Below, piece by piece: positions 23,678 to 63,557 of a stretch of 64,000 nt of DNA. Every line of letters starts with the position of its first letter. The stretch's first letter is position 1. The notes below the pieces were generated by a model. It made no database searches. It was not told the origin of the DNA and was given only the letters and a program-made list of their open reading frames with translations. Made by a program: the position numbers and the translations under genes. The stretch covers positions 28,596,197 through 28,660,196 of the forward strand of contig CM057149.1 in NCBI GenBank assembly GCA_029964075.1, in the 5' to 3' direction. This stretch comes from Patiria pectinifera. Its lineage: Eukaryota > Echinodermata > Asteroidea > Valvatida > Asterinidae.

Positions 23678-26600
23678 TTAGAATTCGACAGTTAGGTTTT
23701 TCATCTCCTCACTCAGTTTTTTGATGTGCTCAAGGTCCTGATCTGTCAAACAGCAAGACCTTAAGGTCAGTGTCTGAAGTAGTTTGAGACATTTTAAATG
23801 GGACCATGTGTCCGAGCCCCCCAGGTATTTATTTTTAGACAGATCCAGCTCAACAAAAGGAGATGTGTCACTAGTATTAAGGGATGGTGCAATGTGAGTA
23901 ATATCAAGACCAATTAATGAGCAGTTCCGTACTTCAAATCGTTTAAGATGTTTGAGCTCCTGAAGAGCTGGTGACCATCGAGCTGCTTTGCCCCCCAGGC
24001 TGGAAATACCTGCAAATACCACTTCAACTAAATCATGAGAAATACATATGCCCTTCAAAATATCTATCACATCTGAGCCAGTGAATGACATCCTCGAGAG
24101 TTCCATCCTCACTTCTCTTTTGATTCTTTTCAACCTAAAGACGTCGTCAACACTACACTCCTTAAGCTTTGGCATGCAGCCAGCTAATGATGCGAGGTGT
24201 TTCACATATTGCGTGTCTGTTTTATTTCCAGACAGATGCACTTCAAGCAAAGTGGATGAGTTACCTGGCAATGCAGCAATCCGTTTAATATCTGTCGCTA
24301 ACAATAGGCATTTTCGTACCTCAAATCGTTCAAGACGTTTCAGGTGATGCAATGCAAATGACAATTGAGCTGTTTCCCCTTCCAGGCTGCGAATATCTGC
24401 AAATACCACTTCAAAGAGGTCTTTACAATTACCAGCGGCCTTCAGAATTTCTGCCACATCAGGATCAGTAAATGGAAGCTTCGAGAGCTCCATCCTTACT
24501 CCTCTTTCGATTCTTTTCAACCTAAAGACGTCATCAATACTACATTGTGCAAGATTTGGGACAGAAAAAGCTAATTCCGCAATGTGTTTCACATCTTGTA
24601 TGCCTAAGCCACAACGATGTAGCCTTAGCTTGTTCAGTTGTTTCAGGCGCTGTAACTGAGACCATGATGCTCCTGCGTCTGCTAGAGATTTATTTCCAGA
24701 CAAATCCAGTTCAACCAACGTGGGCGTGTCACTGTAGAGGGATTCAACTATGTGCTCGATATCCACCACAATCAACGAGCAATTTTGCACTTTCAATCGT
24801 GCAAGATAGTTAAGGTTGTGTAATGCAGGTGACCATTCAGCTGCTTTGCCCCCCAGTCCGGAAATATTTGCAAGTACCACTTCAATTAGGTTCTTACATT
24901 TACCAAAGGCTTCCAAAATGTCTGCCACATCAGGACCAGTAAATGAAAGCTCAGAGAGCTCCATCTTTACGTCTCTTTTGATTGTTTTCAATTTAAAGAA
25001 GCAACCAATGCTACACTGCCCAAGGTTGGGCATAGAACCGGCTAGTGCTGCAATGCATTTCACATCTTGTGCGTCTAAACCACAACGATCTAGCTTCAGC
25101 TTGTTCAGTTGTTTCGGGCGCTGTAAATGAGACCATGACGCACCTACGTGGGCTAGAGATTTATTTCCAGACAGATCCAGTTCAACCAAAGTGGGTTTGT
25201 CACTAATATGTTCAATATCCTCGCTTTGTAATGAGCAGTCGCGTACTGTCAATTGCTTAAGGCTCTCAAGTTTCTTGATTTGCGAGGACCATGTAGATGC
25301 TGTGCCACCCAGACCGGAAATATTTGCAAGTACCACTTCAACAAGGTTCTTACATTTACCAACGGCCTCCAAAATGTCTGCCACATCAGGACCAGTAAAT
25401 GAAAGCTCAGAGAGCTCCATCTTTACGTCTCTTTTGATTGTTTTCAATTTAAAGAAGCAACCAATGCTACACTGCGCAAGGTTGGGCATAGAACCGGCTA
25501 ATGCTGCAATGTACTTCACATCTTGTGTGTCTAAACCACAACGATCTAGCTTTAGCTTGTTCAGTTGTTCCAGGCGCTGCAACTGAGACCATGATGCACC
25601 TACGTGTGCTAGAGATTTATTTCCAGACAGATCCAGTTCAACCAAAGTGGGCGTGTCACTAATATGTTCAATATCATCGCTTTGTAATGAGCAGTCGCGT
25701 ACTGTCAATTGCTTAAGGCTCTTAAGTTTCTTGATTTGCGAGGACCATGTAGATGCTGTGCCACCCAGACCGGAAATATTTGCAAGTACCACTTCAATTA
25801 GGTTCTTACATTTACCAAAGGCCTCCAAAATGTCTGCCACATCAGGACCAGTAAATGAAAGCTCAGAGAGCTCCATCTTCACGTCTCTTTTGATTGTTTT
25901 CAATTTAAAGAAGCAACCAATGCTACACTGCGCAAGGTTGGGCATAGAACCGGCTAATGCTGCAATGCATTTCACATCTTGTGTGTCTAAACCACAACGA
26001 TCTAGCTTTAGCTTGTTCAGTTGTTTCAGGTGCTTTAACTGAGACCATGATGCACCTACGTGTGCTAGAGATTTATTTCCAGACAGATCCAGTTCAACCA
26101 AAGTGGGCGTGTCACTAATATGTTCAAGATCCGCGCCTTGCAATGAGCAGTTGTGTAGTGTCAATTGCTTAAGTTTCTTGATTTGCGAGGACCATTTAGA
26201 TGCTGTGCCACCCAGACATTTAATGCCTTCTGCATGCAGTTCACCAACGGCGTTTTTTCTTTCGCCCAATGCCTTCAATATTTGTTTCATTTCTGTATTA
26301 GAGAGTACTATGTGGCACAAATGCAGCTGTACATTGTCTCCATATGCAATGTGCATTCCAGGACAACCACTTTCCAATTTTACCAATTTAGGCATATCCC
26401 CCAGTGATAGCGCAATATATGTCATATCGGCGTTACTTAACCAACAGCCAGTAAGAATTACCTTCTTTACCTGTGTGTTTTTTAATAGTAGCAACCACTT
26501 GTTTACAGTATCCGTCAAACCATGACCCTCTGATATGTGTAGTTCAGTCAAGTGCTTAGCGGTTGTACCAAATTGTGACAAGATAACATTAATACTGCTA

Positions 26601-28554
26601 GGATTTAAGAAACATCTCTCGAAACGAATGACAGAAAGATTCCTCAATATGACCATGGCTTTTGCTAAATCATTACAACACCCTTCCTCTAAGGTACATG
26701 ATTCAAATTTAATTTCCTTAGGCCTAAGTTCGGCAGGATGATTATTCCATATGTTTTTTGACTGGTCAGCAACATGCTTCAGAAACGAAACGAACATGTT
26801 GATCTCGTCATTTCTGAAACAAATCATATCTAGTGAATCGGTTAAAACTGAATTTACGAATGCTGTCGATAAAAGGCTTTTTGCCTGACTTTCACGGTAA
26901 CAATCCAGGGCAAGTTTCAACGATACTGTCAGCATGTTTGAGACGTGTGACGGAAATGAATGAGATTGAGACGAATATTTGGTTACCGGTACCGCTGAAA
27001 ACGGCCTGTATGCCTGCTTTTCACAAGTCACTGGCCTTGTGTTAGTGCTAGAAACTTCTTGCCCCTCTGGACAACTTCCTGCTGACACTCGTGGTCGTGC
27101 ATCTGTAATATAACTGCTTGCAACATTTTGCAACATCGGTAAGACATGTTTCGTGCATGCTTCATTGTCACCACAGCAAAAGCGAAGGATAAAGCTAAAC
27201 CTACAAAGGTCCTGAAGTTTGAAAAGGGCTTTCTTAAATTCATCAGCGTCTGTTTTTTGTAAGTTTTGAAGGTACTTTGCAGCACTAAACTCCTGAATCG
27301 TTTTGTGGATAAACTGAATACTGTTATGAGGCTTTAACTCTTTTATTACTCGCTGGCTTGTCAGTATGCCAGCCTTCAAAGCTTTATCATATGCAAACGC
27401 AATTTCCTTTTTAAAATCTTTTTCTTCAAATGAAAGCCGCTGCACTGGAGATACAAGGCCACGAAAGGCAACCTCTCCGATTGCTTCAACAATATTTGGG
27501 ATTTCCTCTTGTGATACACCTTTTCTTTCGAACATATACCGTGTAGCGTTTCTGTATAATCGCGATAGTGTGTCTGGAAGTCTGGAATCTTGTCTCCATA
27601 ATAAACACATTAGTAGCAAGAGCATTGGGCTATGCGCTAAATCAAGTAAAACGTTTGAGGACTGAATCTTTTGGAACAGGGCCTTACCATCATCAGGTTT
27701 CTTAAAGAAAAATTTCCCCAAATTAGCTTCCATGTCCTTTTCAGAGAAGCCCAGAACTTTTATATGGGTGAAAGGTTTTTCAATCAGTGATTTGCTGACC
27801 AAAGTGGGAAAATGGGAGGGACGGGTGGTTATGATCACATCAATATCTGCTCCTACCTTTCGATTGAGGATTTGTAGGATCGAGCCAAATGATTGTCCAT
27901 TGAGTTTGGTTGTCCCAAATTCATCGAAGCCATCCAGAAGAAGTAGCACCTTTTTAGGATTCTTGATGATGAACCCTTTTAGATGTTTCTTATCGATAAC
28001 GTTTTTGTCGATGAGTTGATGAAAAAGGGAGTCAATAAAATCTGACGTTTGATCCAATGCGTTCATTTTTAGAACAAAAACTAGTTTGTACTTCTTTGTT
28101 GTTTCGCAAACGCCAAGCGCCCAGTCGTACGCAATTTTGCCTATAAGTGTTGTTTTTCCCATACCGGCCTCTCCATTATAAATGATACGATTGATAACAA
28201 AACCATGCTCCTTGAGAAAAATTTTCTCATACAACATCTTTTTATCGCTCAACCCCTGTCCTTGACCATTACTATCACCATGACTGTTATCATCATCACT
28301 AACAAATCGTACATTTGTGTATATTTTCTTGATATGCTTCATGTCATCATCAATCCATGGATTCACCTGCACGTAACTGCCCGTGGTTCTGTATACCCGT
28401 TTAAGCGCCTCCTCACACATATCCGCTGCAGCATCTTCTGCTGTATCGGTGGCTGGGCTGACATCTGGGCTGGTGTCTTGACTGGTCCTTGTCGATGGAC
28501 TGCAAACCTCAGGTTGGAGGTGTTGTACATAGGATTCATCATTTGTTATGCCTC
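23678..28554 (-). CDS. NACHT-LRR (NLR) receptor, 3'-terminal exon
   Basis: A single 4,877-nt exon (phase 1 acceptor GAACAG|GAGG at 28555, stop TAA at its 3' end) encoding 1,624 residues. Numbering from the internal Met at 28420: Walker A GEAGMGKT at about 83-90; Walker B LLLLDGFDE at about 159-167; sensor 1 IITTR near 196-200; a MLLLLMCLL helix near 266-274; the winged-helix motif IHKTIQEFSAAKYL near 371-384. Ribonuclease-inhibitor-like LRRs follow from roughly 560 to the end, including near-identical 152-residue blocks. These are the standard parts of an NLR: NACHT for nucleotide-driven oligomerisation, LRR for sensing. No DEATH or CARD domain is seen in this exon; about 60 acidic/Ser-rich residues precede the NACHT. 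Intact LRR-like sequence lies downstream of the stop, so the LRR may once have been longer. Confidence 0.95.
24850..26230 (-). repeat. Tandem 456-bp LRR modules within the NLR exon
   Basis: A block of 152 codons recurs at a spacing of exactly 456 bp: the same segment (gccacccagaccggaaat and its variant) sits near 24852, 25308 and 25764, with a diverged fourth copy near 26212. Differences between copies are few. Each module holds about five to six LRR units with the conserved strand VELDLSGNKSL. Exact spacing and high identity point to recent unequal exchange or gene conversion inside the exon. Confidence 0.9.
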
Positions 28555-29599
28555 CTGTTCAAAAGCAATGGTTACACAAACAACTTATTATCAAGAGAAT
28601 AAATGATTCAAAGCGATTTTTTTCTGAAAAAATTAGGCTACTGGTGTGCCTAATTTGATAAGGATTTAATTGTCCATAATTTCATCTTTGACAAGATTTT
28701 TGTTTGGTGGAATTTGCACTTTTGGTTCAAAAGTTATGACAAGTTTTGTGAAGCCCATCTGAAGCGGGTTGGTCTGATTTAATGACCTTAACACAACGAC
28801 CAGTTATGTACAATGCAGGTATGCATTGAAGACAATTTAAACCAGAACAAAACTTTCTTTGAAACAACTGATGATAAGTATCACTTAAATTTAATAACTG
28901 GACTATCATTGTTTCAAAGCATCATGAATTATTGACTAATAACGTTGATTGTGGACTAAAGGATTATGTAAGCCTAATCCTGCCACACATGTCCTTCTTT
29001 GTGATCCACAAATACTTTCATCTGTACTGAATTCAAACCTTTCATTAGGTATGTGTGATTTCACAAATCAGACCAGCTTGGAATTTATAACCTTCTTCAA
29101 TGTACTCTATCTCTAGCTCTGGACAGGATTGTCCAAATGAGATGGGATAAAAATCATAGTGAAGAGAAGGAAAGGTACTTTTAAAAGAGGGTTTACATTA
29201 TGATGAATAGGGGTGGTTTATATTTTTAATATTTTTGTTTCTAATCCTGTATTTGGATTTTTGTGACCGAAAGGATACTTGAATGTGAACAAATATGTGC
29301 CGATATTTAACACTATGTTTAAGATCGGTTTGAGTCTATGCTGATAATTAACCTCGCCATCAGCATTCTGACTCCAAGTGGTCTTTGACAGAGTGTTTAC
29401 AAACCAACCACACATTCAATCCTTAAGTAAAGATCCGATAAATAACGGGTAAAAATATTGTTGAAAGGCGGGTTGTAGAAGTTGCTGCAAGTACAGAGGG
29501 TGATGGGGCCAACACCCAACGGTTACCAAGGTCTGTTGTTGGCAATTGCCTGAGGAAATTTATTACTCTTCGCTTCATTGGAACACCGACTCGGTACCG

Positions 29600-30880
29600 C
29601 TGTAAAATGTGCAACCCTCTCCTCCTGGCGCAGACATTACATCCCCGCAGAAATAACCGTAATGTCCGCAGACATACCTGAGCAGAAGTACATGGCTTTT
29701 ACTTTGGCCAAAGTTTTACTGACCCCCAAGTGACCATTAATTTGCCATCAGTGCAACTCAGACAAAATTTCCTTACGGCAGTTTGAAATTTTCCAACATC
29801 GAAGTCCTACCCCTTTAATTTAACTCCTTCATGGACCTCCTTCTGGTCCCACTGCGACCAGTAGGCCATACAGGTTGCCGAGAAGTAGGAGCCTAATGTC
29901 TTCCACTCGGGACGAACATCCCTCTTCTTTAGTTCAACCAACTCATGGTGTCATCCTGTAACTGTACTTGTCTTTAAAACACTGTGTGACAGGGTTGGCT
30001 GCTGGGCGGCTACGCCATAACCAACAACTCACCACCCCGAGGTTGCCCCTCAGGCATCTCACCAGTTGTCTCATCCTCATTGACTAATAACGGCGGCACT
30101 GTTTGCATTGCCGTGTTCACAACCCATCAGCATGTTCATGCTTTTTGCCGCTTCTGTGCTTTACGACTAAGTGTATTGTGACAGGGCCTCAATCCACCTT
30201 GCCAGCTGACCCTCAGGGTTTTAAAATAAAAACCCACCGAAATGCGGCATGGTCGGTTCTGACAGCCACCCTGCGGTCGTACATACTGTTTGACATACTT
30301 CAAGTGACGCAGTACTTTCAGGTTAGCTGAAGATCTGGCTCGCATACGCAAGCACTTTTTCGTCTTGGACCTGCGAGAACAATGGCCCAATACCACAACC
30401 GATGTCATCGGTATCCAAGATTCACCCTCATGTAGGCATCGGGTATGAAAGAAATGGAGCAACCTGGAGCCTTTTCTTCACCTCGTCAAAAGTTCCTCGC
30501 ATCTCGTACACATCTTGGAACCGGCCAATGTGCCACTGCCTCAATTTTCTGAGGATCCATGGCTACCCCTTTTGAGGACGTAATGTGCCCTAGGTAAGCC
30601 ACTGACCTTTTAAACAAATGACATTTGCTGGGCTTCAATTTTAGCACTGCGTTTCTCATCCTGCCCAACAAAACTCGGAGACGCTCCATTGTCTCCATCA
30701 TCGTTTGATTAAACACAATCACATGAAGTCATCCAAATATATCAGTAAGATTTCCAACTTTATGAGCCGGCCATAACTTTTTCCATGAGCAGTTCATACA
30801 CATTGATCTCCATTAGTAAGACTGGATAGGACACGCGTATTCTTGCGCGCAGTGAATACAGTGCGGGTTTAACGTTTGCG
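29600..30880 (-). mobile_element. Degenerate Ty3/gypsy pol
   Basis: Minus-strand order is as in gypsy pol: a reverse-transcriptase YLDD motif near 30735-30746, then RLRVLLGRMRNAVLKLKPSK and VAYLGHITSSKGV at 30486-30722, then an integrase zinc-binding remnant (HLGVSKTLAKVKAMYF) near 29690-29735. Frameshifts and stops throughout; no LTRs recognised. Confidence 0.85.
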
Positions 30881-30944
30881 ACCGAGCATGCGTGACGTGA
30901 ACGTGCTGCATGGTCTGAGTGTGACGGGGTTGTGTCCTATCCTG

Positions 30945-31315
30945 TGGAGTACTGTGGTCTCGTGGTTAAGGGCACTGATTTGTGGTCTGCGGGTATAACT
31001 GCAGGTTGTGGGTTCGAGTCTTGGCGGGGTCATGGTGCGTGTGCCCTTGGGCAAGGCACTTTGTCACTCATTGCTTCTCTCCACCCAGGAGTAAATGGAG
31101 TAAATGGGTACCTGTGAGGGCACAGATGGTTATTGTGATTGAATTAGCTTCCTTGCGCCTAACAGGCTGCATCAAACTGTATACTCCCCAGGGAGCTGAG
31201 ATGGTATTTGGAACGTTTCATGTGCCCACTGAGCAGGGCTAATAATGATGTAGCGCCTTGAGCACCAGTCTTGTTGGATACGTGCGCTTTATAAGTATCC
31301 ACTACTACTATCCAG
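30945..31315 (+). mobile_element. tRNA-derived SINE (LINE-tailed)
   Basis: A box gtggtctcgtggttaagggc, B box gggttcgagtc, central ttgggcaaggcactttgtca and aatgggtacctgtgagg, and tail gcgctttataagtatccactactacta, whose form suggests priming by a CR1/L2-type LINE. Confidence 0.85.
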
Positions 31316-32089
31316 TCTCACTAATGGATATCAATGTTCATACATTGAAGGGGCGTTGCACATCCTGAAAGGCATGTATTTCAACTGGTACCAAAAAAAA
31401 CCCCTGTTTCTCACAACAAATGTTGACTTTTGGCTGGCGTCCTCGCACAGAATAACTTGCCAGTACCTCGACGCCAAGTCAACTCAACGTATAGTCTAGG
31501 GACTAGCCGTTGTTATGATTTGGTGAACGCGCCACCGCAGCGATAACCGGCCGTCGCGAGAGGGCGTTATCACGACCAACCAATATCGCCTACGGACCCG
31601 TTGGAACACGTCTAGGCCGACTTCTACTGTTTGTGTGGTGCGCACACACCTGTTTGGCCTAAACTATACAGAGGACATTAAAAAAATTGTAGTAGTCCCA
31701 ATAGTTTTAATTTATTTTTTAGTTTTAATTATTTTTTTTTCTGTTTAATATATTTGTTGTCGGGTGGTCTGTTTGCTTGTGGGTTTTTTTTATAAATAAT
31801 TGTCAATTTTCCTGTTGATTAAAATGCGCCATATATATTTGTTTAATTCTAATTGTAATTTAAATAAATATACAATTTTATGATACCTGTACATGGCGGG
31901 TCTCCGCTGTTGGTAATCAAATAAATATATATATAAATAAATAAATAAAAGCAAACTCTCAAATTTCTTCCCGTAATGTGAAAGAATCTTGGCAAGACGT
32001 TTGTGAAACTTCACTGGTTAGCTCTTTTGTTGTGCTGTGTGTAGTATGTGCGGGACAAATGAACAGTAATTGCCTGCAGAAGTCGCGCA

Positions 32090-33583: not shown

Positions 33584-33700
33584 CTGATGTAGATGCCTGG
33601 CTTGCCACATTCTGAGGGCTTTGGTATACAATGCAAATATTCCCGGTAACTTGACCCAAAAGAAGTGGACAACGGTCGCCAGACACGCACACATTTCCCA
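33584..33700 (-). CDS. NLR gene: 39-residue exon between linker array and NACHT exon
   Basis: Acceptor CTATATAG and donor CATCAG|GTATGA, 117 nt, phase 1-1. Encodes VGNVCVSGDRCPLLLG and TGNICIVYQ, with two Cys and beta-strand-like alternation; the end is Ser/Thr/Gln-rich like the linkers. I do not recognise a family. Flanking intron sequence is homologous to the 1.8-kb units at 37.5-47.4 kb, but those units lack this exon. Weaker than the other exons because the acceptor tract is poor. Confidence 0.55.
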
Positions 33701-37556: not shown

Positions 37557-37709
37557 CTTGGATATTTTGTTGTGATTGAGTCTCCTCGCCCACTCTCCCG
37601 GGTTTATCACCGTGCTTCTGCTCCTGTTTTCCTTGCTCAAGTGATGCCGCCGTCTGTACTTGAGAGTTATGATTTCCTGCTTCACAAGATTGATCAGTTG
37701 TCATACCTC
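37557..37709 (-). CDS. NLR gene: 51-residue linker exon, copy 6 (nearest NACHT)
   Basis: Acceptor AAACAG|GAGGTATG and donor CCAAG|GTGAAG, 153 nt, phase 1-1. The peptide begins GMTTDQSCEAGNHNSQ and ends QNIQ|G: hydrophilic, Gln/Glu/Lys-rich, presumably disordered. It is homologous to the last third of the 121-residue linker exons at 47.6 and 48.7 kb. Confidence 0.75.
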
Positions 37710-39402
37710 CTGTTTAAAGGCCAAGATATTAAACACAGGTAATTATTATTAATGGAATATATGTGTGCTTGGCTGGCTTTAACGCTGTGAAATGTTTTGA
37801 CTTGTTTTGGTGAAGGTGCAACCCTTGTCTCCTGGCACAAACATAAAATCCACGCAAAAATGACCGTTTGTCTGCATGCATACCTGACCAGAAGTACACG
37901 ACTTTTACTGGCCCCTTAATATCTGAAAGTTCAGTTGTAAAATATTAGCCACGTTGTTATGGACAACATACACCGTGTTATCTTCATTGCTAAATCTTAG
38001 TAATGGTTAAGTTACTTCCTAAGGCAAACCCCCACATCACCACGGTGGACGGTACTACCTCCATTAACGACAGGCATATAATTTGATATGAAACTTTGAA
38101 AACCCATTAAACCTTGTCCCCCCCCCCCCCCCAGTCGCCCCCACTGAGATTTTGAGTTTCTAAAAAAATATCCATGATCTACATGACGCCATGGGCGTCA
38201 ATCCTGGGGGGACAGGGGGACTGGTCCCCCCTACTTTTTGAAGGGTGGGGGGACACAATATCAAATGCCCCCCCCCCCGATTTTTGAACTCATGTCTCAT
38301 TTACGGGCCCTATTATGTACTACAATGTATCTTTTGCTCAACAATATTGGTTAAAGTGGTCAGAAATTGCCTCAGATAGCACCACAGAGCATTTAGAATC
38401 CAATATTTTTCGGGGCCCTTAAGCGGGCCCCGAACCCCACGCCTATAGCTCAGGATTCTGGTAGCTGGTTCAATGACTCCATTCTCGAAATCAATGTTCA
38501 TAAAGTTTCTTATGCCGTTAGCTGAGAAAACCTCGAAAATTATTTTTAAATTATATTCTTTTGTGCTAAGATAATTATTGGTTAAAGTGGTAAGAAATTG
38601 CTTCAGATCACACCACAGAACATCTAGAATCCAATTTTTTCGGGGCCCTTAAGCGGGCCCCGAACCCCTACGCGGTATGGGCCGCGCGCTTCGCGCTTCG
38701 CATCTGTTCTGATCAAGGAATGTCCCCCTCCCCACTTTTGAGAAGCGATTGACGCCCCTACATGACGCCCCACTATGAAATGTTCCAGCCCCCTCAGCGC
38801 CCCCACTGAACAATTTCTGGCTAAGCTACTGCCCGAGAATGACGTTAGAACTAATCAAACGGCACCGGGCGGACACGTGTCGACTCGGGTGAGCTAAACG
38901 AATGTACCCAATATACGCTCGTACCAGCCCTGCAAACAGGACGCTGGGAAGGGCTGATGAATTTCAGCTCTGATTGGATTGATGTTGCGTGACCTGTGAC
39001 CTGCACGTCATCACGGTTCCGACACTGCAAGGTTTTAAACAGCTTTTAAGACCGAGTAACTACTCTTTTATTCCAATTCATCAATCCTGCCAGACACGTT
39101 TAAATCTCTCACTGGCGAAACGGCTGGTTGTAGTGCTGAGGGCACAAACTACCGCATCGCGAAGTATATACAGAGGAGTATAGTTAAACAATGACTATAA
39201 AGATACATAAGTTAAATGAATTACACCAGTAAAATGTTTTACAGAATTAATAAGATCCCTTTTCACGTGCTTCTGGTATTTGTTAACGACAGTTAACTGA
39301 ACCTACGTTACTCTCCACCAGAGTGCCTGTAATTAATGTCTTATTAAACACGCTAATATTCACAATCCGTCATACTGATGATAGTCACTTATAAGCCTTC
39401 AC

Positions 39403-39555
39403 CTTGGATATTTTGTTGTGATTGAGTCTCCTCGCCCACTTTCCCGGGTTTATCACCGTGCTTCTGCTCCTGTTTTCCTTGCTCAAGTGATGCCGCCGTC
39501 TGTACTTGAGAGTTATGATTTCCTGCTTCACAAGATTGATCAGTTGTCATACCTC
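39403..39555 (-). CDS. NLR gene: 51-residue linker exon, copy 5
   Basis: Same borders and phase as the copy at 37557-37709 and almost identical in sequence; part of the ~1.8-kb tandem array. Open, with both splice sites intact. The only clear difference seen is a Ser for Pro codon change in the cactttccc/cactctccc region. Confidence 0.75.
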
Positions 39556-41255
39556 CTGTTTAAAGGCCAAGATATTAAACACAGGTAATTATTATAAATG
39601 GAATATATGTGTGCTTGGCTGGCTTTAACGCTGTGAAATGTTTTGACTTGTTTTGGTGAAGGTGCAACCCTTGTCTCCTGGCACAAACAAAAAATCCACG
39701 CAAAAATGACCGTTTGTCTGCATGCATACCTGACCAGAAGTACACGACTTTTACTGGCCCCTTAATATCTGAAAGTTCAGTTGTAAAATATTAGCCACGT
39801 TGTTATGGACAACATACACCGTGTTATCTTCATTGCTAAATCTTAGTAATGGTTAAGTTACTTCCTAAGGCAAACCCCCACATCACCACGGTGGCCGGGA
39901 CTACCTCCATTAACGACAGGCATATAATTTGATATGAAACTTTGAAACCCATTAAACCTTGTCACCCCCCCCCCCCAGTCGCCCCCACTGAGATTTTGAG
40001 TTTCTAAAAAAATATCCATGATCTACATGACGCCATGGGCGTCAATCCTGGGGGGACAGGGGGACTGGTCCCCCCTACTTTTTGAAGGGTGGGGGACACA
40101 ATATCAAATGCCCCCCCCCCCCCGATTTTTGAACTCGTGTCTCATTTACGGGCCCTATTATGTACTACAATGTATCTTTTGCTCAACAATATTGGTTAAA
40201 GTGGTCAGAAATTGCCTCAGATAGCACCACAGAGCATTTAGAATCCAATATTTTTCGGGGCCCTTAAGCGGGCCCCGAACCCCACGCCTATAGCTCAGGA
40301 TTCTGGTAGCTGGTTCAATGACTCCATTCTCGAAATCAATGTTCATAAAGTTTCTTATGCCGTTAGCTGAGAAAACCTCGAAAATTATTTTTACATTATA
40401 TTCTTTTGTGCTAAGATAATTATTGGTTAAAGTGGTAAGAAATTGCTTCAGATCACACCACAGAACATCTAGAATCCAATTTTTTCGGGGCCCTTAAGCG
40501 GGCCCCGAACCCCTACGCCGTATGGGCCGCGCGCTTCGCGCTTCGCATCTGTTCTGATCAAGGAATGTCCCCCTCCCCACTTTTGAGAAGCGATTGACGC
40601 CCCTACATGACGCCCCACTATGCAATGTTCCAGCCCCCCCAGCCCCCCCCCCCCCCCACTGAACAATTTCTGGCTAAGCTACTGCCCGAGAATGACGTTA
40701 GAACTAATCAAACGGCACCGGGCGGACACGTGTCGACTCGGGTGAGCTAAACGAATGTACCCCATATACGCTCGTACCAGCCCTGCAAACAGGACGCTGG
40801 GAAGGGCTGATGAATTTCAGCTCTGATTGGATTGATGTTGCGTGACCTGTGACCTGCACGTCATCACGGTTCCGACACTGCAAGGTTTTAAACAGCTTTT
40901 AAGACCGAGTAACTACTCTTTTATTCCAATTCATCAATCCTGCCAGACACGTTTAAATCTCTCACTGGCGAAACGGCTGGTTGTAGTGCTGAGGGCACAA
41001 ACTACCGCATCGCGAAGTATATACAGAGGAGTATAGTTAAACAATGACTATAAAGATACATAAGTTAAATGAATTACACCAGTAAAACGTTTTACAGAAT
41101 TAATAAGATCCCTTTTCACGAGCTTCTGGTATTTGTTAACGACAGTTAACTGAACCTACGTTACTCTCCACCAGAGTGCCTGTAAATAATGTCTTATTAA
41201 ACACGCTAATATTCACAATCCGTCATACTGATGATAGTCACTAATAAGCCTTCAC

Positions 41256-41408
41256 CTTGGATATTTTGTTGTGATTGAGTCTCCTCGCCCACTCTCCCGG
41301 GTTTATCACCGTGCTTCTGCTCCTGTTTTCCTTGCTCAAGTGATGCCGCCGTCTGTACTTGAGAGTTATGATTTCCTGCTTCACAAGATTGATCAGTTGT
41401 CATACCTC
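41256..41408 (-). CDS. NLR gene: 51-residue linker exon, copy 4
   Basis: Near-identical to its sisters, 153 nt, phase 1-1, donor CCAAG|GTGAAG and acceptor AAACAG intact. The peptide keeps KQEQKHGDKPGRVGEE in the middle. Confidence 0.75.
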
Positions 41409-42981: not shown

Positions 42982-43134
42982 CTTGGATATTTTGTTGTGA
43001 TTGAGTCTCCTCGCCCACTCTCCCGGGCTTATCACCGTGCTTCTGCTCCTGTTTTCCTTGCTCAAGTGATGCCGACGTCTGTACTTGAGAGTTATGATTT
43101 CCTGCTTCACAAGATTGATCAGTTGTCATACCTC
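42982..43134 (-). CDS. NLR gene: 51-residue linker exon, copy 3
   Basis: 153 nt, phase 1-1, intact borders. Reads QTSASLEQ where copies 1, 2, 4, 5 and 6 read QTAASLEQ or close to it, a variant shared with the copy at 44727. It also has an AGC-type change near the GRV motif. The shared variant suggests the two were duplicated as a pair. Confidence 0.75.
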
Positions 43135-44726: not shown

Positions 44727-44879
44727 CTTGGATATTTTGTTGTGATTGAGTCTCCTCGCCCACTCTCCCGGGCTTATCACCGTGCTTCTGCTCCTGTTTT
44801 CCTTGCTCAAGTGATGCCGACGTCTGTACTTGAGAGTTATGATTTCCTGCTTCACAAGATTGATCAGTTGTCATACCTC
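44727..44879 (-). CDS. NLR gene: 51-residue linker exon, copy 2
   Basis: 153 nt, phase 1-1, intact borders, carries the QTSASLEQ variant also present at 42982-43134. Flanking intron is nearly identical to the sister unit, including the shortened gttaaagtgg junction. Confidence 0.75.
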
Positions 44880-46472: not shown

Positions 46473-46625
46473 CTTGGATATTTTGTTGTGATTGAGTCTC
46501 CTCGCCCACTCTCCCGGGTTTATCACCGTGCTTCTGCTCCTGTTTTCCTTGCTCAAGTGATGCCGCCGTCTGTACTTGAGAGTTATGATTTCCTGCTTCA
46601 CAAGATTGATCAGTTGTCATACCTC
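46473..46625 (-). CDS. NLR gene: 51-residue linker exon, copy 1
   Basis: 153 nt, phase 1-1, intact borders; QTAASLEQ form. This is the right-most unit of the array, next to the long-linker exons from which the short ones appear to derive. Confidence 0.75.
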
Positions 46626-49666: not shown

Positions 49667-49778
49667 CTGCTGATTTCTCTTCATCGTCAGCTCCGCCCAT
49701 TAACCCTGACACGAGGCGTAACTCTATGTTAGCGTCTTGCTCAATCCCATGTTCTTTTAGAGAGATGCCATCACAAAG
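49667..49778 (-). CDS. NLR gene: UBL-3, second-half exon
   Basis: Acceptor CTTTTTAG, phase 0 in; donor CAGCAG|GTAAAC, phase 1 out (112 nt). Encodes LCDGISLKEHGIEQDANIEL and RLVSGLMGG, matching the ubiquitin C-terminal half ([20 protein letters not shown], then the LRLRGG region). The Gly-Gly is followed by ADDEEKSA, so it is internal. The intron separating it from the first half carries a LINE. Confidence 0.85.
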
Positions 49779-51070: not shown

Positions 51071-51285
51071 CTTATGGTTTCCTTTGATGAAAAGATGTTG
51101 CTTCTCTGGTTCAATTCCTAGTTTTTCTTGTAGTTTCCCTTTCAACACTGTGATAAGAGTTGATGGATGCATTTGCAGACACATTGGTCCTATCGACGTA
51201 CTATTCAAAAACAGCTGGATTGGGAGTTCTCTGTTCTCTTCAAGTGATGGTTTCTTGGCAGAACTTATTTGTGGGTTATTTCTCT
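51071..51285 (-). CDS. NLR gene: UBL-3, first-half exon
   Basis: Acceptor ATGCTTAG, phase 1 in; donor CATAAG|GTAAAG, phase 0 out (215 nt). After a polar lead (ERNNPQISSAKK) it encodes LPIQLFLNSTSIG and MHPSTLITVLKGKLQEKLGI, then EPEKQHLFIKG. This lines up with ubiquitin beta1-beta2, the helix (TIENVKAKIQDKEGI) and PDQQRLIFAG. A Phe takes the place of ubiquitin Ile44. With the exon at 49667 it forms a complete UBL of about 76 residues. Confidence 0.85.
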
Positions 51286-54191: not shown

Positions 54192-54303
54192 CTGCTGATT
54201 TCTGTTCATCGTAGGCTCCGCCCATTAAACCTGACACAAGGTGTAACTCTATGTCAGCATCTTGCTCAATTGCGTGATCTTTGAGAGAGATGTCATCACA
54301 AAA
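54192..54303 (-). CDS. NLR gene: UBL-2, second-half exon
   Basis: Acceptor TTTTCAG, phase 0 in; donor CAGCAG|GTAAGG, phase 1 out (112 nt). Encodes FCDDISLKDHAIEQDADIEL, then HLVSGLMGG and AYDEQKSA. Same length and Gly-Gly position as the UBL-3 exon. Confidence 0.85.
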
Positions 54304-54701: not shown

Positions 54702-54898
54702 CTTAACACGTTGCTTCTCTGGTTCGATTCCCACTTTTTCTTGTAGGTTTCCTTCCAAGATTGTGATAAGAGTTGATGGATGCATTTGCAGACATATTGG
54801 TCCCATCGAAGTACTGTTCATGAACAGCTGGATCGGGCGTTCTTCGTTCCCTTCAAGTGATGGTTTCTTGGCAGCATTTGTTTGTGTCTTGTTTCTCT
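54702..54898 (-). CDS. NLR gene: UBL-2, first-half exon with 6-residue deletion
   Basis: Acceptor ATGCTTAG and donor GTTAAG|GTAAAG, 197 nt, phase 1 in and 0 out. Encodes RPIQLFMNSTSMG and MHPSTLITILEGNLQEKVGI, then EPEKQRVK. It is 18 nt shorter than the UBL-3 exon just before the donor, which removes the counterpart of the ubiquitin beta3 strand including the Ile44 position. Confidence 0.8.
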
Positions 54899-57008: not shown

Positions 57009-57128
57009 CTCCAGATAAGTTCGGTGAATCCTCTGCATCACCTGCTTTCTCTGACTGTACATCGCTTGTAAACGTTTGGTTACAAACACCCTCTTCCTTA
57101 CCATTTTCTTGTGATGTTCCCATGTTCC
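57009..57128 (-). CDS. NLR gene: 40-residue linker exon
   Basis: Acceptor TACTGTAG and donor TGGAG|GTAAAA, 120 nt, phase 1-1. Acidic and polar: GNMGTSQENGKEEGV, then SEKAGDAEDSPNLS. It lacks the basic start of the other linkers and, like its counterpart at 52325, precedes a UBL. Confidence 0.72.
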
Positions 57129-57460
57129 CTACAGTAATAATCAAAACACATTGTTTTAACAGCAGCACGTCCGTTTCCTCTTTATTTGACCCCCGTGAGA
57201 TTTTCTTACAAAGACATAAATGTTTACGGAGTTGCTTTTAAGGTCAAGGGAAAAGCTAGGTTTTCATGACCGATCACTGCCGACGGTATTGGCTGCTGAT
57301 GTGAGGCAAGTTTCATTGCCATTTGTGACTTAAATTTGTCATTTTGTGTCTTTTTGCGACGGTTAAGGACAAGCAAGAGTTTGCTGATCCAAGGATAATT
57401 TTTTTTTTATAAGTGCAGCCTGAGTAAAGATCAGAAAGGAAAACATGATGTTTAACTTAC

Positions 57461-57622
57461 CAGGCTCTGACTGTAAGGGAGCTGTGGCACCAGATACTGA
57501 TGAGGTTTGGGTATCTCCCGAGTTCGATACATTTTCCTCAGCTTGAGTCGATGACATTTTAGTTTCATCTTTACATGATGGTTTCTCGGCAGCCTTTCCT
57601 CTTGTCCTGTTCTTTTTTCCCT
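57461..57622 (-). CDS. NLR gene: 54-residue linker exon
   Basis: Acceptor TTGGATAG and donor GCCTG|GTAAGT, 162 nt, phase 1-1. Starts EGKKNRTRGKAAEK, contains KMSSTQAEENVSNSGDTQTS and ends LQSEP|G. Confidence 0.78.
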
Positions 57623-57754
57623 CTATCCAAGTGAAATGTTCAAGGAAGAACAGCTTGTTGATGATACATTATTACGAGAATCAATTTGAAACCAAGATGT
57701 ATACAACTGTTAAAATGATATGTTAAACATAACAGGAATGATCAATCAATTTAC

Positions 57755-57913
57755 CTTTTGATTTGTTACAAATGGCGGTAAGAGTTGCTGATGAAATCAA
57801 GGAACCTGAGTCATGTAGGTTCTTTGGATCTTCATCAACTGAGGCAGTCTGTCTTCTGGATTCCTCATGGAGGAATTTTGGGGCAGTTTTTCTTCGTCTT
57901 GTTCTTTTTGGCA
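57755..57913 (-). CDS. NLR gene: 53-residue linker exon
   Basis: Acceptor CTTTGCAG and donor CAAAAG|GTAAAT, 159 nt, phase 1-1. Starts VPKRTRRRKTAPK, contains ESRRQTASVDED and ends CNKSK|G. Confidence 0.8.
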
Positions 57914-58068
57914 CTGCAAAGCGTATTAACAAAGATGGAAAATACAATTCTCCTAAATTCCATTTAAATTCAATCCAGGGTTCACATGAGCAAATATTCT
58001 TTCAGAATGAGTTAAAGTGAACTGAAATAACTTGCAAATTGATCGTAGTTCAAGGGCTTTTATTTTAC

Positions 58069-58251
58069 CAGGTTGTGACTGAACTTTAGCGTCATCTTCG
58101 GTTTTAAGGGAACAGGGGGAGTCCCTAGTGCTATCCGATTTTTCTTGCTCTTTATCAGCCAACTTTGTGTTTCTTTTGCGTGCTGCTTTTCTTCTTCCTT
58201 TCCTTGTTCTTCCTGAATTCTTTTTGGTCTGGTTTCTTCTCCGTCTTTTTC
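58069..58251 (-). CDS. NLR gene: 61-residue linker exon
   Basis: Acceptor GTCTACAG and donor ACCTG|GTAAAA, 183 nt, phase 1-1. KRRRRNQTKK and RKGRRKAARKRN make a strongly bipartite basic region, followed by LADKEQEKSDS and a Ser/Pro end. Confidence 0.8.
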
Positions 58252-58346
58252 CTGTAGACAAAGATGAGAATAGTCGTAGAACCTTTAGCAAGCCTGCCTG
58301 CAGCGAACATAATCACTGAAATTGTTTAAATGAGAATAATATTTAC

Positions 58347-58553
58347 TAGTCTTTGATGAGTGACTTGTGGCTGTCTTGACTTCTGCGGAGGTATAAGAAT
58401 CCCCGGAGACATCTAAGATCTGTTCGTCTTTCTCAACAAGGCTTGTCTTACTCCTGGTGTCTTCTCCGTGGAGGACTTGCTTGGCAGTTTTTCTTTTTCC
58501 ACTTTTACTCTTCAAAGAACTCTTCTTTGTTCTTTTAGATTTCCGAGCTTTTT
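58347..58553 (-). CDS. NLR gene: 69-residue linker exon
   Basis: Acceptor ATTTTCAG and donor GACTA|GTAAAT, 207 nt, phase 1-1. Basic region ARKSKRTKKSSLKSKSGKRK, then VEKDEQILDVSGD. It ends on an A rather than the usual G, so the next junction codon would be AGA (Arg) instead of GGA (Gly). Confidence 0.75.
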
Positions 58554-58675
58554 CTGAAAATAAAAGATTATAGTAAATGTTTATTATCAACAAGAGTAAT
58601 GATCAACAAAGTAATACCGAGCTTGTTTTTTTTTATTATTAAAAAAGACAGAGACTGTAACTATGGGGATTTTAC

Positions 58676-58849
58676 CAGTTTTTAATTGTTTGCTTGCAGC
58701 GACCGGAGTTTGTAAGGGGATAGAAGATGAGTTATCTAAGTCCTCTTGCTCTTTATCAATAATTGGAGGACTTTGTATTTTGAGTTCTTTAGATGAGGAT
58801 TGCTTGTCAAAATCGTTCAGTCGTTTTCTGCACCTCCTCTTTTTATTTC
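58676..58849 (-). CDS. NLR gene: 58-residue linker exon
   Basis: Acceptor CTCTTTCAG and donor AACTG|GTAAAA, 174 nt, phase 1-1. Starts GNKKRRCRKRLND, contains IDKEQEDLDNSSS and ends KQLKT|G. Confidence 0.78.
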
Positions 58850-59031
58850 CTGAAAGAGATACGATTGTTCAAATGTTAAACAAGACAAGAAATCTTTGTA
58901 AATCAAAGTTTGCAAAATAACTATTGTTTGGCGGAAAGACGAGGGTAGGAAGCTGAAAAGAATGACGGATAGCAGAAAAAACACTGTTGACTTCAACAAG
59001 AATATAAAAGAAAACAAGAAGTCAAGTTTAC

Positions 59032-59202
59032 CAGATTTTGACCGGACGCTAGCATCAGCACTGGCTACGGAGGAGATTTCTGAGTTTTCGCATTTTTCAG
59101 AGTTTTCGAAATTCTCTTTTCCTTTCTGGTCTTGAGTAGGTTGTTCTTTACGTGATTGTTTAGTGTTTGCCTTTCGTCGTCCCCTTCTTGTCTTCTCTCT
59201 CT
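59032..59202 (-). CDS. NLR gene: 57-residue linker exon
   Basis: Acceptor TCTGTTAG and donor ATCTG|GTAAAC, 171 nt, phase 1-1. Starts EREKTRRGRRKANTK, then QDQKGKENFENSEK and a Ser/Ala-rich end VRSKS|G. Confidence 0.78.
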
Positions 59203-59311
59203 CTAACAGATTTAAACAAAAATCGATTTATTTAATACTTGCAATGTGTCCCGGCAATATTTCGAAATTGTAATTGAAAATGAATTAAATAACACGAACG
59301 CAAATTTCAAC

Positions 59312-59713
59312 CTTTGAGTGAGTTGCTCTGAGCATCTGCTACTGAAGATTCGCTTTGGTTAACTGAGTTGCAGCTTCGCTCCTTGTCATTCAAAGAAGTT
59401 TTTCTGTTGGCGTCTTCTTCGGAAGAAGAGGGACAACATGTAATGAGGGACAACACACAAAAGCTACACATGCTCAGAATGAAGCCAAGTGCAGCAAATG
59501 GAAAGCACAACATCCAAAGCAAGAGGTTGAATTTCTCAGACTTCGACTGGGTGCCACCTGCAACACCGGCTGTCGAGTGGCCGGTTTGAGATTCGTCAGG
59601 GCCATTTGAGCTTTCTTGAGATTCCTCAGCTTGGGAAGACTGCCTATTAGTTTTGTCTTCACATGAAAATTGCGTTCCAGCTTTCCTTCCTCTACGTCTT
59701 TTCTTCTGTATCC
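59312..59713 (-). CDS. NLR gene: 134-residue linker exon with a membrane-like segment
   Basis: Acceptor CCTTTAG and donor CAAAG|GTTGAA, 402 nt, phase 1-1. Starts GIQKKRRRGRKAG, then polar linker to GTQSKSEK, then a hydrophobic run at residues 63-94 (LLLWMLCFPFAALGFILSMC and onward; DNA about 59433-59531), then SSSEEDANRKTS typical of the linkers. It looks like two linker exons joined through a former intron. An internal phase 1-1 intron (donor GCAG|GTGGCA, acceptor TTCCGAAG) is also possible, in which case the hydrophobic part would be removed. The outer donor is weak. Confidence 0.6.
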
Positions 59714-59830
59714 CTAAAGGATGTACAAAATATGATTTGTACCATTTTGATTGAGATTCGACTTGAATAAGAAGGTGAATAAATCTATGGTTTACATAAT
59801 AATATAAATGAAATACATGAAGTATGTCAC

Positions 59831-59989
59831 CTTTTGACTGGCTATTAGCGACCGCGGTATTGGCTGCTGAGGAAGTGGAGGTATCCAACGAGTTATGATT
59901 GGAGGCTGTTTGACTGTTGGCGTCTTCATTAGAGGGAGGTTTCTCACCGGTTTTCATTCGATGTCTTCTTTTCCTTTTCTGGTTTCCTA
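59831..59989 (-). CDS. NLR gene: 53-residue linker exon (KRKRRHR family, unit 4)
   Basis: Acceptor TATGCAG and donor CAAAAG|GTGACA, 159 nt, phase 1-1. VGNQKRKRRHRMKTGEK, then NEDANSQTASNHNSLDTSTS and a tail NSQSK|G. One of four sister exons at 59.8-62.1 kb. Confidence 0.8.
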
Positions 59990-60104
59990 CTGCATAAAAA
60001 TTAAAAGTAAAGACTGAAGAGTAACCTCGAGTTACTTTTACTGAGGCCAAAACTTCCGAGGGTTTGAACATTAATTAAATCACTATACTCATATGTTATT
60101 TTAC

Positions 60105-60230
60105 CAGGTTCTGGCTGATCACTAGCCTGAGCATCGGCTGCCAAGGAAGTAGGAGAATCCCCGAGTAGTCCAAATGATCTTGATCTTCATCGACTGATAT
60201 GGATTGTCCCTCAGCTTTTTGAAGGATGCA
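60105..60230 (-). pseudogene. Broken GQSIS-family linker exon
   Basis: Third broken copy, with the same frameshift position as the copy at 61192 plus a further change in the DDS codons (gactactcgggg). The shared lesion means it arose before these units separated. Confidence 0.7.
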
Positions 60231-60344
60231 CAAATTAAGAATTGCAGGGCATCCCATTTTATCGCAACACGAGATTCGACTGGAAGGAGACGCTGATAAA
60301 ATGGTTGAGGCCTACCTCATAATAGGACTGAAAAAGTATCTTAC

Positions 60345-60500
60345 CTTTTGGTTGGTTATTAATGGCGGCATTGGCTGCTGAGAAAGTGGAGGCATCCAAC
60401 GAGTTATCACTGGATGCTGTTTGGCTGTTTGAGTCTTCATCGAAGGCAGGTTTCTCGCTGGTTCTCTTTCGATGTCTTCTTTTCCTTTTCCGATTTCTTA
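60345..60500 (-). CDS. NLR gene: 52-residue linker exon (KRKRRHR family, unit 3)
   Basis: Acceptor TGTGCAG and donor CAAAAG|GTAAGA, 156 nt, phase 1-1. VRNRKRKRRHRKRTSEK, then DEDSNSQTASSDNSLDASTF and NNQPK|G. Confidence 0.8.
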
Positions 60501-60590
60501 CTGCACAGTCATTAAAAGTAATAACTAAAGAGTAACCTCGCGTTACTTTTACTTAGGCCAAAACCTCCGAAAGTTTGAACATTAGTTTAA

Positions 60591-61157
60591 GGCAGTGTAT
60601 ATTTTGCCGGAGACGGCAAACCTTTAGTAAACGTTAGTTTGCCGGATATGCACTGAACATGCGCAGTTACTGTTTTTTTGTACTCTGACATTTTCCGGTG
60701 ACAAATTTTAGTCTGGCTCCATGCCAATATTATCTTTGTAACCTCGTATTCACGGGATGGGATTCAGACCATTTTATAATTTCGGACTTTATTTCCCTTT
60801 CAAAAAAAATTCTCCAGAGCCACAAATCTGAAAAAGAAAATGTAATACTCTGCAATAAAAATGTTTGAGACATATTAAAATAATAAAAGAAGAATATTCT
60901 TATTTTTTGGGATGGGAAAAAAAAAACTTAAAAATGTGGCGGCGATCGGATTCGAACTCGAGTCATCCCGCTCACTTGAGTTTTCGCTTAACCACTGCAC
61001 CAAACCAGCTACACATGTTTCGGTGGGAATTTAATACATCTTATAATTCAGCCCTATCTTAAAGAGTACAGCGCCCTCTGTTGATATGGATTGCCGCTGG
61101 CAAACCTTTAGTAAACGTTAGTTTGCCGGCGTTACCTCCGGCAAAATATCCACTACC
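60591..61157 (-). mobile_element. MITE with TTAA flanks and a tRNA-like core
   Basis: Inverted ends ggcagtgtatattttgccgg and ccggcaaaatatccactacc, flanked by TTAA on both sides. The interior holds a minus-strand tRNA-like segment (A box tggtttggtgcagtggttaa, B box gttcgaatcc). It sits between a linker exon and its dead partner; the sister introns at 60.0 and 61.65 kb lack it and give the empty site. Confidence 0.85.
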
Positions 61158-61191
61158 TTAATGTAATCACTATACTCATATGTTATTTTAC

Positions 61192-61312
61192 CAGGTTCTG
61201 ACTGATCACTAGCCTGAGCATCGGCTGCCGAGGAAGTAGGAGAATCCCCGAGTCGTCCAAATGATCTTGATCTTCATTGACTGAGATGGATTGTCCCTAA
61301 GCTTTTTGAAGG
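61192..61312 (-). pseudogene. Broken GQSIS-family linker exon
   Basis: Matches the intact exon at 62229 from the GQSIS motif to the donor, but a one-base loss after gactcgggg shifts the frame and the basic N-terminal part is missing. The donor CCTG|GTAAAA itself is intact. Confidence 0.7.
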
Positions 61313-61432
61313 ATGCACAAATTAAGAATTGCAGGGCATACAATTTGATCACAGCACGAGATTCGACTGGAAGGAGACGCTGAATAAAATGGTTTAGGCC
61401 TACCTCATAATAGGACTGAAAAAGTATTTTAC

Positions 61433-61588
61433 CTTTTGGTTGGTTATTAATGGCGGCATTGGCTGCTGAGGAGGTGGAGGTATCCAACGAGTTATCATTG
61501 GAGGCTGTTTGGCTGTTGGAGTCTTCATCAGAGGCAGGTTTCTCGCCGGTTTTCCTTTGATGTCTTATTTTCCTTTTCCGGTTTCTTA
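61433..61588 (-). CDS. NLR gene: 52-residue linker exon (KRKRRHR family, unit 2)
   Basis: Acceptor TATGCAG and donor CAAAAG|GTAAAA, 156 nt, phase 1-1. VRNRKRKIRHQRKTGEK, then DEDSNSQTASNDNSLDTSTS and NNQPK|G. Open and intact. Confidence 0.8.
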
Positions 61589-61703
61589 CTGCATAATAAT
61601 TAAAGGTAAAGACTGTAGAGTAACCTCAAGTTACTTTTACTGAGGCCAAAACTTCCGAGTGTTTTAACATTTATCAAATCACTATACTCGGACGTTGTTT
61701 CAC

Positions 61704-61826
61704 CAGGTTTTGACTGCTCACGAGCCTGAGCATCGACTGCTGGGGAAGCAGGGCAAACCGAGAGTCATCCAAATAATCTTGATCTTCATCACCTGAGATG
61801 GATTGTCCCTATGCATTTTTGAAGGA
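61704..61826 (-). pseudogene. Broken GQSIS-family linker exon
   Basis: Homologous to the 3' two-thirds of the intact exon at 62229 (ggacaatccatctcaggtga on the minus strand), but the basic start is replaced by sequence with an in-frame TAG, and an indel after the DDS codons shifts the frame relative to the donor. Confidence 0.7.
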
Positions 61827-61944
61827 TGCACAAGTTAAGATTTGTCGGGCATCCCATTTTATCGCAGCACGAGATTCGACTAGAGCAAGACGCTGAATAA
61901 AAGGATTATCCTCATAATAAATTATGACTGGAATAGTATATTAC

Positions 61945-62106
61945 CTTTTGGTTTGTTAATAATGGCGCCATTGGCTGCTGAGGAAGTGAGGGTATCCAAC
62001 GAGTTATCATTGGAGGCTGTTTGGCTGTTGGCTTCCTCCTCAGGCTCAGAGGAAGTTTTCTCGCCGGTTTTCGTTCGATGTCTCCTTTTTCTTTTCTTTA
62101 TCCTTA
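61945..62106 (-). CDS. NLR gene: 54-residue linker exon (KRKRRHR family, unit 1)
   Basis: Acceptor TATGCAG and donor CAAAAG|GTAATA, 162 nt, phase 1-1. VRIKKRKRRHRTKTGEK, then SEPEEEANSQTASNDNSLDT and INKPK|G. Confidence 0.8.
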
Positions 62107-62228
62107 CTGCATAATAATTAAAGGTATACGTACAGATATCAAGGTTACCTCAAGAATATTTCACTTTTAGCCAGATCTCCCGATTGCTTTGAAGGTAATT
62201 AAATTACTATTCTCAGATGTTATTTTAC

Positions 62229-62399
62229 CCGGTTCTGACTGCTCAGTGGCCTGAGCATCGACTGCCGAAGAAGTAGAGGAATCCCCCGAGTCATCCAAAT
62301 GATCTCGATCTACATAGCCTGAGATAGACTGTCCCTTAGCATCATTTTTAGTTGAGGATTTCTTGTTGTGATTTCTCTGGCTACGCTTTTTCCGCTTCC
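62229..62399 (-). CDS. NLR gene: 57-residue linker exon (GQSIS family, intact copy)
   Basis: Acceptor AATACCAG and donor AACCG|GTAAAA, 171 nt, phase 1-1. Starts GKRKKRSQRNHNKK, then GQSISGYVDRDHLDDSGDSS and ends EQSEP|G. It is the only open member of a four-copy family; the other three are broken. Confidence 0.78.
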
Positions 62400-63435: not shown

Positions 63436-63448
63436 TATACGAGATTAC

Positions 63449-63557
63449 CTGCGGATTTCCGTCGGTCAGCTTCACCATTCAACTCAGACGCAGTGCGCAA
63501 CTTTAATTTGGTTTCTTGCACAATCCCATGATCCTTTAGAGAGAATCCATCACGAAG
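63449..63557 (-). CDS. NLR gene: UBL-1, second-half exon (most 5' exon seen)
   Basis: Acceptor ATATTTCAG, phase 0 in; donor CCGCAG|GTAATC, phase 1 out (109 nt). Encodes LRDGFSLKDHGIVQETKLKL, then RTASELNGEADRRKSA. It aligns with the ubiquitin C-terminal half, but the Gly-Gly is replaced by Asn-Gly. The matching first-half exon is not recognisable in 63.6-64.0 kb. Confidence 0.78.

Follow-up and report, generated by a model that had tools for sequence, protein, structure and literature searches.

Ubiquitin-like domains ahead of NACHT-LRR exons in a probable receptor gene family of the sea star Patiria pectinifera

Can a receptor encode a ubiquitin fold as its signalling domain and, if so, what is the binding partner of that fold? 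The N-terminal adaptors of NLR receptors are usually death-type signalling domains, and NLR classes are named by the N-terminal signalling domain: CARD, PYD, BIR, DEATH, DED, or TIR. The question is made testable by a 64,000-nucleotide stretch of the Patiria pectinifera genome (C21:28596197-28660196, contig CM057149.1), referred to here as the window. On its minus strand lies gene A, which runs from a ubiquitin-like (UBL) domain through linkers, a second and gapped UBL, linkers, a third UBL, linkers, and a short beta-rich exon to an exon encoding a NACHT domain and leucine-rich repeats (LRRs). This architecture is laid out in open, splice-compatible exons, it recurs elsewhere in the genome, and several of its exons are under selection. 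The UBL-linker-NACHT-LRR arrangement very probably constitutes one gene family.

The NACHT-LRR end of gene A is an open reading frame of 1626 codons (23678-28558, minus strand; positions given without a contig name are window coordinates), and its acceptor sets the exon at 28554-23678 (4877 nt, stop-terminated). The exon matches Pfam NACHT (6.3e-24) and LRR families (LRR_8, 1.6e-9, and others), carries the motifs GEAGMGKT, LLLLDGFDE, and TTRP, and includes four 456-bp tandem LRR units (24392-26217, minus strand). It thus has the hallmarks of an NLR, namely a NACHT domain with Walker A and Walker B motifs and C-terminal LRRs.

Ahead of the NACHT exon, the gene A model places 31 minus-strand exons. 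They comprise one upstream exon, termed exon 0, six half-exons that form three UBLs, each interrupted by a phase-0 intron, 23 linkers, and one beta-rich exon. Gene A extends beyond the right window edge, and both exon 0 (65463-65234, phase 0-2) and the first half of UBL1 (64399-64234, phase 2-0) lie just outside the window. The second half of UBL1 (63449-63557, phase 0 in and 1 out, AG/GT borders) is conserved in two paralogues. It is followed by 13 linker exons (57009-62399, phase 1-1, 120-207 nt each), mostly with a basic start and an acidic or Ser-rich end. UBL2 is probably damaged; its first half (54702-54898) has a 6-residue gap after GIEPEKQ, and its second half lies at 54192-54303. Two linkers (53855-53676 and 52408-52325), found in both the exon chain described below and the joined model, lead to UBL3, whose halves are at 51071-51285 (phase 1 in, 0 out) and 49667-49778 (phase 0 in, 1 out). 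Next come two near-identical 363-nt linkers (49037-48675 and 48000-47638) with a related exon in gene B, a neighbouring paralogue, a 153-nt linker exon present six times, once in each of a row of tandem units spaced 1726-1853 bp (37557-46625), and the beta-rich exon of 39 residues (33584-33700), which immediately precedes NACHT.

Joined together, the 32 exons form one frame with AG/GT at every border, compatible phases, and one stop, which is terminal. UBL halves run 1-0 and 0-1 (2-0 in the first half of UBL1), linkers run 1-1, and the NACHT exon starts in phase 1. The original prediction had proposed a NACHT-LRR gene with three UBL regions, 25 linker exons, and an NLR exon with Walker motifs and LRRs, joined from 32 exons into one open frame of 10,341 nt. 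The NLR exon, the three UBL regions, and the single open frame were all recovered, and the missing half of UBL1 sits just beyond the window; the exon count was not exactly reproduced, with 30 exons inside the window (9,846 nt there) and two outside for a total of 10,242 nt. The model omits a likely linker near 53.2 kb and a dubious exon at 36419-36321. A mechanical chain of phase-1/phase-1 exons from the UBLs to NACHT took up 13, 2, and 10 exons on the minus strand versus 1, 1, and 0 on the opposite strand, with scores of 49.5, 14.6, and 85.9 versus 1.3, 2.8, and 0; because the NACHT exons of genes A and B served as the training set for the codon model, the comparison between strands is not entirely even. 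With 25 exons on the gene strand and 2 on the opposite strand, chance joining of exons was rejected.

Exon order, phases, and splice sites are common to three C21 genes, two of which are compact. Gene B, 66 kb from gene A, has exon 0, three UBLs of which the second is truncated, a linker, the beta-rich exon, and NACHT-LRR within ~13 kb, and gene C, at 7.6 Mb of C21, has exon 0, two UBLs, linkers, and the NACHT start within ~10 kb. Comparison of the three genes revealed exon 0, whose phase (0-2) is compatible with the phase-2 start of UBL1. An internal ATG of exon 0 looks Kozak-like by eye; the codons ahead of it are conserved too, so that ATG need not be the true start. Ratios of nonsynonymous to synonymous substitution (dN/dS) among genes A-C, calculated by the Nei-Gojobori method, are low in exon 0 (0.24-0.38), the first half of UBL1 (0.16-0.19), and the second half of the last UBL (0.21-0.35). 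Several UBL-region exons are under purifying selection.

The family is concentrated on C21. Searches covered the 613.5-Mb genome in 1020 contigs, which is rich in NACHT exons (at least 101 matches, all 101 of those scored, the best 101 of 439 candidates). COX1 has no match in the assembly, from which mitochondrial DNA therefore seems to be missing. Among 121 listed NACHT relatives, 24 have 63-100% identity to the window exon, all of them on C21, and the remainder have at most 60%. A same-strand UBL exon lies upstream (before the next NACHT, within 60 kb) of 23 of these 24 exons, the window's included; 22 have two or more, and wrong-strand cases number zero. The window UBL exon as a query returned 60 genome matches, 53 on C21, of which 48 are placed upstream of a NACHT exon, and this distribution led to rejection of the idea that the matches are scattered ordinary ubiquitin genes. 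The NACHT frames of the 24 relatives span 298-2458 codons, and LRR number may vary within the family. No DEATH domain was found within 590 kb of the 24 exons among the best 150 of 595 DEATH candidates. Another exon 0 with three UBL matches stands near 28.80 Mb (C21:28795300-28803147), where no NACHT is listed.

Exon 0 shows the same order. It has 72 genome matches (111 of 111 candidates scored), 28 on C21, 36 on C17, and the rest on C5, C10, C14, C19, and C422. A UBL exon follows within 3 kb on the 3′ side in 55 of the 72, and on the 5′ side in none.

Because tandem duplication of one block could explain the C21 counts, an independent case was sought, and contig C17 provided it. Its NACHT exons have 48-58% identity to the window NACHT, which suggests that the families probably separated long ago. 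A UBL lies within 15 kb upstream of 26 of 38 listed C17 NACHT exons (two UBLs in 21) and downstream of 6; the corresponding counts are 21 versus 1 at 10 kb and 28 versus 10 at 20 kb. DEATH lies within 15 kb upstream of 16 of the 38 and downstream of 2 (best 150 of 595 DEATH candidates). At one C17 locus, gene D (C17:11215901-11224400), the exons read without a splice model give the order UBL-DEATH-DEATH-UBL-DEATH-linker-NACHT, comprising a UBL first half (31.1 bits), DEATH (4e-14), DEATH (3e-14), a second UBL first half (22.9 bits, under the Pfam ubiquitin cut-off of 25.4 bits), and DEATH (8e-13). After the third DEATH comes a long charged linker with a related beta-rich end, and then the NACHT start. 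The gene D UBL exon as a query gave at least 145 matches (best 150 of 210 candidates), and Pfam ubiquitin gave at least 50 (best 150 of 270 candidates scored), five of them near C17 NACHT exons. The original claim of a NACHT-LRR gene with tandem UBLs on a variable linker is borne out by the recurrence of order and phases in two paralogues, by purifying selection on several of the exons, and by UBLs upstream of NACHT on C17.

By exon order, the UBL unit is not tied to NACHT. On C20 (20.4-26.7 Mb), a same-strand DEATH follows within 5 kb of the UBL in 10 of 21 matches and precedes it in none, and these UBL-DEATH loci have no close listed NACHT. On C5 (C5:4941001-4949000), an exon that tentatively resembles TRADD-N, with a borderline TRADD-like_N match of 23.5 bits (cut-off 23.7), comes after exon 0 and a UBL (Pfam 1.8e-10); a genome search with the TRADD-N family gave 5 matches, none of them on C5. 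The UBL unit may thus be common to several immune gene families. A polyubiquitin-like frame of 1143 codons is present at C1:14148125-14151532, with at least 15 ubiquitin units among those listed.

The UBLs resemble ubiquitin to differing degrees. In gene A, the joined UBL3 passes the Pfam ubiquitin cut-off (26.2 bits), UBL1 falls just under it (24.1), and UBL2 scores 13.8 (E 0.05). Of four paralogue UBLs, two clear the cut-off at 29.1 and 36.2 bits, with a best E of 5.1e-9, and the other two fall short at 23.0 and 23.1, so that 3 of 7 joined C21 UBLs exceed the cut-off, and phmmer also retrieves ubiquitin chains. A residue check covered seven UBLs, six of genes A-C and one of C5, with the two gapped middle UBLs excluded. 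The hydrophobic core, taken as 14 ubiquitin positions, is intact (14/14) in 6 of the 7, and UBL3 of gene B has T and C at two positions. Several UBLs end in LMGG-like tails; the GG pair is lacking in UBL1 of genes A and B.

The linker is variable. The 153-nt linker exon has six copies in gene A versus a single counterpart in the compact neighbour, which agrees with the expandable linker of the original prediction. Charge and motif analysis used hand-picked, trimmed KR-type linkers, 14 from gene A, 2 from B, and 6 from C, other linkers being excluded. Within this set, the 14 gene A linkers have a charge of +5 to +17 in the first half and 0 to -7 in the second, and basic runs and DSGxxS motifs exceed within-exon shuffles in the 22 linkers of genes A-C, which are related copies. 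For the linkers of genes A and C that were searched, Pfam gave no match at E<=0.5, and a hidden DEATH domain in them was rejected at that threshold. An N-terminal DEATH domain, which defines NLRD-type receptors, was accordingly not found for the C21 family among the best 150 of 595 candidates or in these linkers.

The 39-residue beta-rich exon is real, as had been proposed. It aligns with the pre-NACHT exon of gene B (p 0.0005) and gene C (p 0.001) relative to shuffles, and the suspicion that 33700-33584 is spurious was dropped after these alignments; its alignment with the C17 copy is no better than shuffles (p 0.11). The gene C beta-rich sequence as a query gave 16 genome matches, 16/16 of them on the same strand upstream of a C21 NACHT and 15/16 with a UBL further upstream; the diverged gene A copy is not among the 16. 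The gene B exon carries a VNIGG..QNVTV pattern, which by eye could be a motif for oligomerisation or of amyloid type. To the eye the beta-rich exon also resembles a RHIM; it has no Pfam match, and no RHIM is claimed. Elsewhere in the window, an open frame on the plus strand (10172-10681) contains a zf-met zinc finger (1.9e-7) and is perhaps part of a neighbouring gene.

The explanation that probably accounts best for these observations is that gene A belongs to a tandem-expanded NLR family with UBLs as the signalling adaptor ahead of NACHT-LRR. The N-terminus would consist of exon 0, two or three UBLs, long charged linkers, and the beta-rich exon. As in other members of the NLR family, the LRRs probably sense ligand and the NACHT domain probably oligomerises, and oligomerisation would collect many UBLs on flexible tethers to form a multivalent platform. 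In the C17 family the UBLs would share the role of signalling adaptor with DEATH; on C21, where DEATH was not detected, they would fill it themselves. They would bind other proteins of a UBL/DEATH network, probably not via the usual Ile44 face of ubiquitin. We infer from the genome sequence both a single transcript spanning the gene A exons and all of these binding and signalling steps. Judged by position, there is about an even chance that the UBL acts at the N-terminus as an adaptor, either alongside DEATH or in its place. More tentatively, the ubiquitin fold could rank equal to the DEATH fold as an immune adaptor domain, with activated receptors and adaptors meeting through UBLs. In this speculative scheme, its carriers could be the UBL-only NLRs (C21), the UBL/DEATH-NLRs (C17), the UBL-DEATH genes (C20), and the TRADD-N-like gene (C5).

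Two alternatives concern what the UBLs do. The original prediction proposed that the encoded UBLs could mimic a ubiquitin chain and thereby draw in, directly, signalling proteins that bind ubiquitin. The UBLs do match ubiquitin by sequence, mostly occur two or three per gene, and have a precedent in the tandem UBLs of OASL. The mimic itself is unlikely and has been weakened by the surface residues: L8 is replaced by S, T, or P and K48 and K63 are absent in 7/7 UBLs, residue 44 is aromatic (F or Y) in 6/7, and residue 68 is E, D, or K in 7/7. V70 depends on register, being R in the ungapped alignment and retained as V in the gapped phmmer alignment. The Ile44 face (L8, I44, H68, V70) expected of a ubiquitin-chain mimic is therefore not preserved, and linkers of tens to hundreds of residues separate the UBLs. 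The same altered face speaks against receptor turnover, in which UBLs would engage the proteasome or shuttle factors and linker phospho-motifs would act as degrons. RAD23/ubiquilin-type UBLs bind the proteasome and do so via an Ile44-type face. DSGxxS is a beta-TrCP degron pattern and occurs 3 times in the 22 hand-picked linker exons versus 0.08 expected from shuffles, a count that is not independent since the linkers were hand-picked and are related copies. A role in turnover is quite unlikely.

Two further alternatives concern the gene itself. The window gene could be decaying within a family that is itself real: UBL2 is gapped, the last intron and linker array of gene A are swollen by repeats, and segments of the first 760 NACHT-exon residues give A-B dN/dS values of 0.37-0.82. 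Set against this, every one of the 32 exons in the model has an open frame and AG/GT borders, the 1626 codons of NACHT-LRR among them, and decay is very unlikely. It is highly improbable that a UBL/linker gene and an NLR gene are neighbours that were repeatedly co-duplicated and never form one transcript. C21 tandem arrays would hold any adjoining pair together, and the last intron of gene A (~5 kb) contains degraded retroelement fragments (29426-31483, minus strand; RVT_1 20.1 bits, under the cut-off of 29.6), whose neighbouring-region matches fall outside gene B. The NACHT exon, however, has a phase-1 acceptor in three genes and no common early start codon, with residue 4 being Met in B and C and Ile in A, and residue 47 being Met in A and B and Leu in C. 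The Met common to all three lies further in (DDDMKH/R), and a start there would remove a conserved stretch; before residue 47, dN/dS versus gene C is 0.39 and 0.28. The beta-rich stretch likewise ends with a phase-1 donor in genes A, B, C, and D, and UBLs precede NACHT on C17 too, with DEATH exons in between at gene D.

Several observations weigh against a single UBL-NACHT-LRR gene with a UBL adaptor. The one-gene claim comes from genomic sequence, the adaptor role is read from position, and a duplicated two-gene block could yield the C21 UBL counts, the beta-rich counts, and part of the exon 0 counts. Selection is uneven: dN/dS is not clearly below 1 in the A-B comparison of the NACHT exon start (0.68), NACHT core (0.70), and first half of the last UBL (0.73), nor in the second half of UBL1 (0.45-0.89), and the first half of UBL2 gives 0.49 (p 0.057). 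The copies of the 153-nt exon, in six ~1.75-kb units, are no better conserved than their own 5′ flank (mean divergence 0.92% versus 0.87%), and the six-unit array reads as a recent expansion rather than as proof of selection. On C21, the NACHT exon at 7687764 has no UBL match, another has just one, and no NACHT is listed for five UBL matches (3.17 Mb and 28.80 Mb). On C17, 12 of 38 NACHT exons have no UBL match within 15 kb, the exon 0 matches are weak (E 1e-5 to 9e-4, 36-44% identity), and gene D, the locus that was read, yielded no exon 0; 17 exon 0 matches have no nearby UBL, 4 on C21 and 13 of the 36 on C17. The NACHT, DEATH, ubiquitin, and UBL-exon searches scored only part of their candidates. 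The lines that argue beyond a two-gene duplication are recurrence on C17, selection, and the lack of a shared NACHT start codon.

UBLs at the usual death-domain position suggest an undescribed NLR signalling route. About two dozen close UBL NLRs in which DEATH was not found stand beside a family with both domains in one genome, which makes P. pectinifera a natural experiment on the rewiring of NLR output.

Tandem-UBL immune proteins include OASL, ISG15, and FAT10, which resemble the window gene in having two UBLs within one immune protein and which are not known to have NACHT or LRR. Among the open-access full-text papers listed, in which coral and sponge NLR work was covered partly, none was on a UBL-NACHT-LRR family. 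The original statement that no such family is described holds to that extent and is qualified by a sponge report on the NLRX receptors of Dysidea avara (PMC12909245, 2026). These are also NACHT-LRR proteins, their architecture figure names UBQ in its legend, and the paper mentions 'a few cases' in which the N-terminal domain is neither CARD nor DEATH. It is a single sponge mention, and the accessible text describes neither a UBL family nor tandem UBLs, an expanded linker, or a combination of UBL with DEATH. Metazoan TRADD-N expansions, which have ubiquitin domains among their variable partners (PMC8195603), resemble the C5 locus with its exon 0 and UBL before the TRADD-like_N match; no UBL-NACHT-LRR fusion is described in the accessible part of that paper. 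In the main texts, 'ubiquitin' has 0 occurrences in PMC2575513, PMC11508797, and PMC5094078, and appears twice, on other matters, in PMC8913654.

The NLRD-type DEATH-NACHT-LRR receptors of sea urchin and amphioxus, as presented in the accessible text of PMC2575513 and PMC11508797, are like the C21 family in their NACHT-LRR core, N-terminal interaction domains, and expanded family. The likeness extends to C17, where DEATH exons precede NACHT in P. pectinifera too. Unlike NLRD, the C21 family has UBLs, with DEATH not found, and gene D on C17 interleaves UBL and DEATH.

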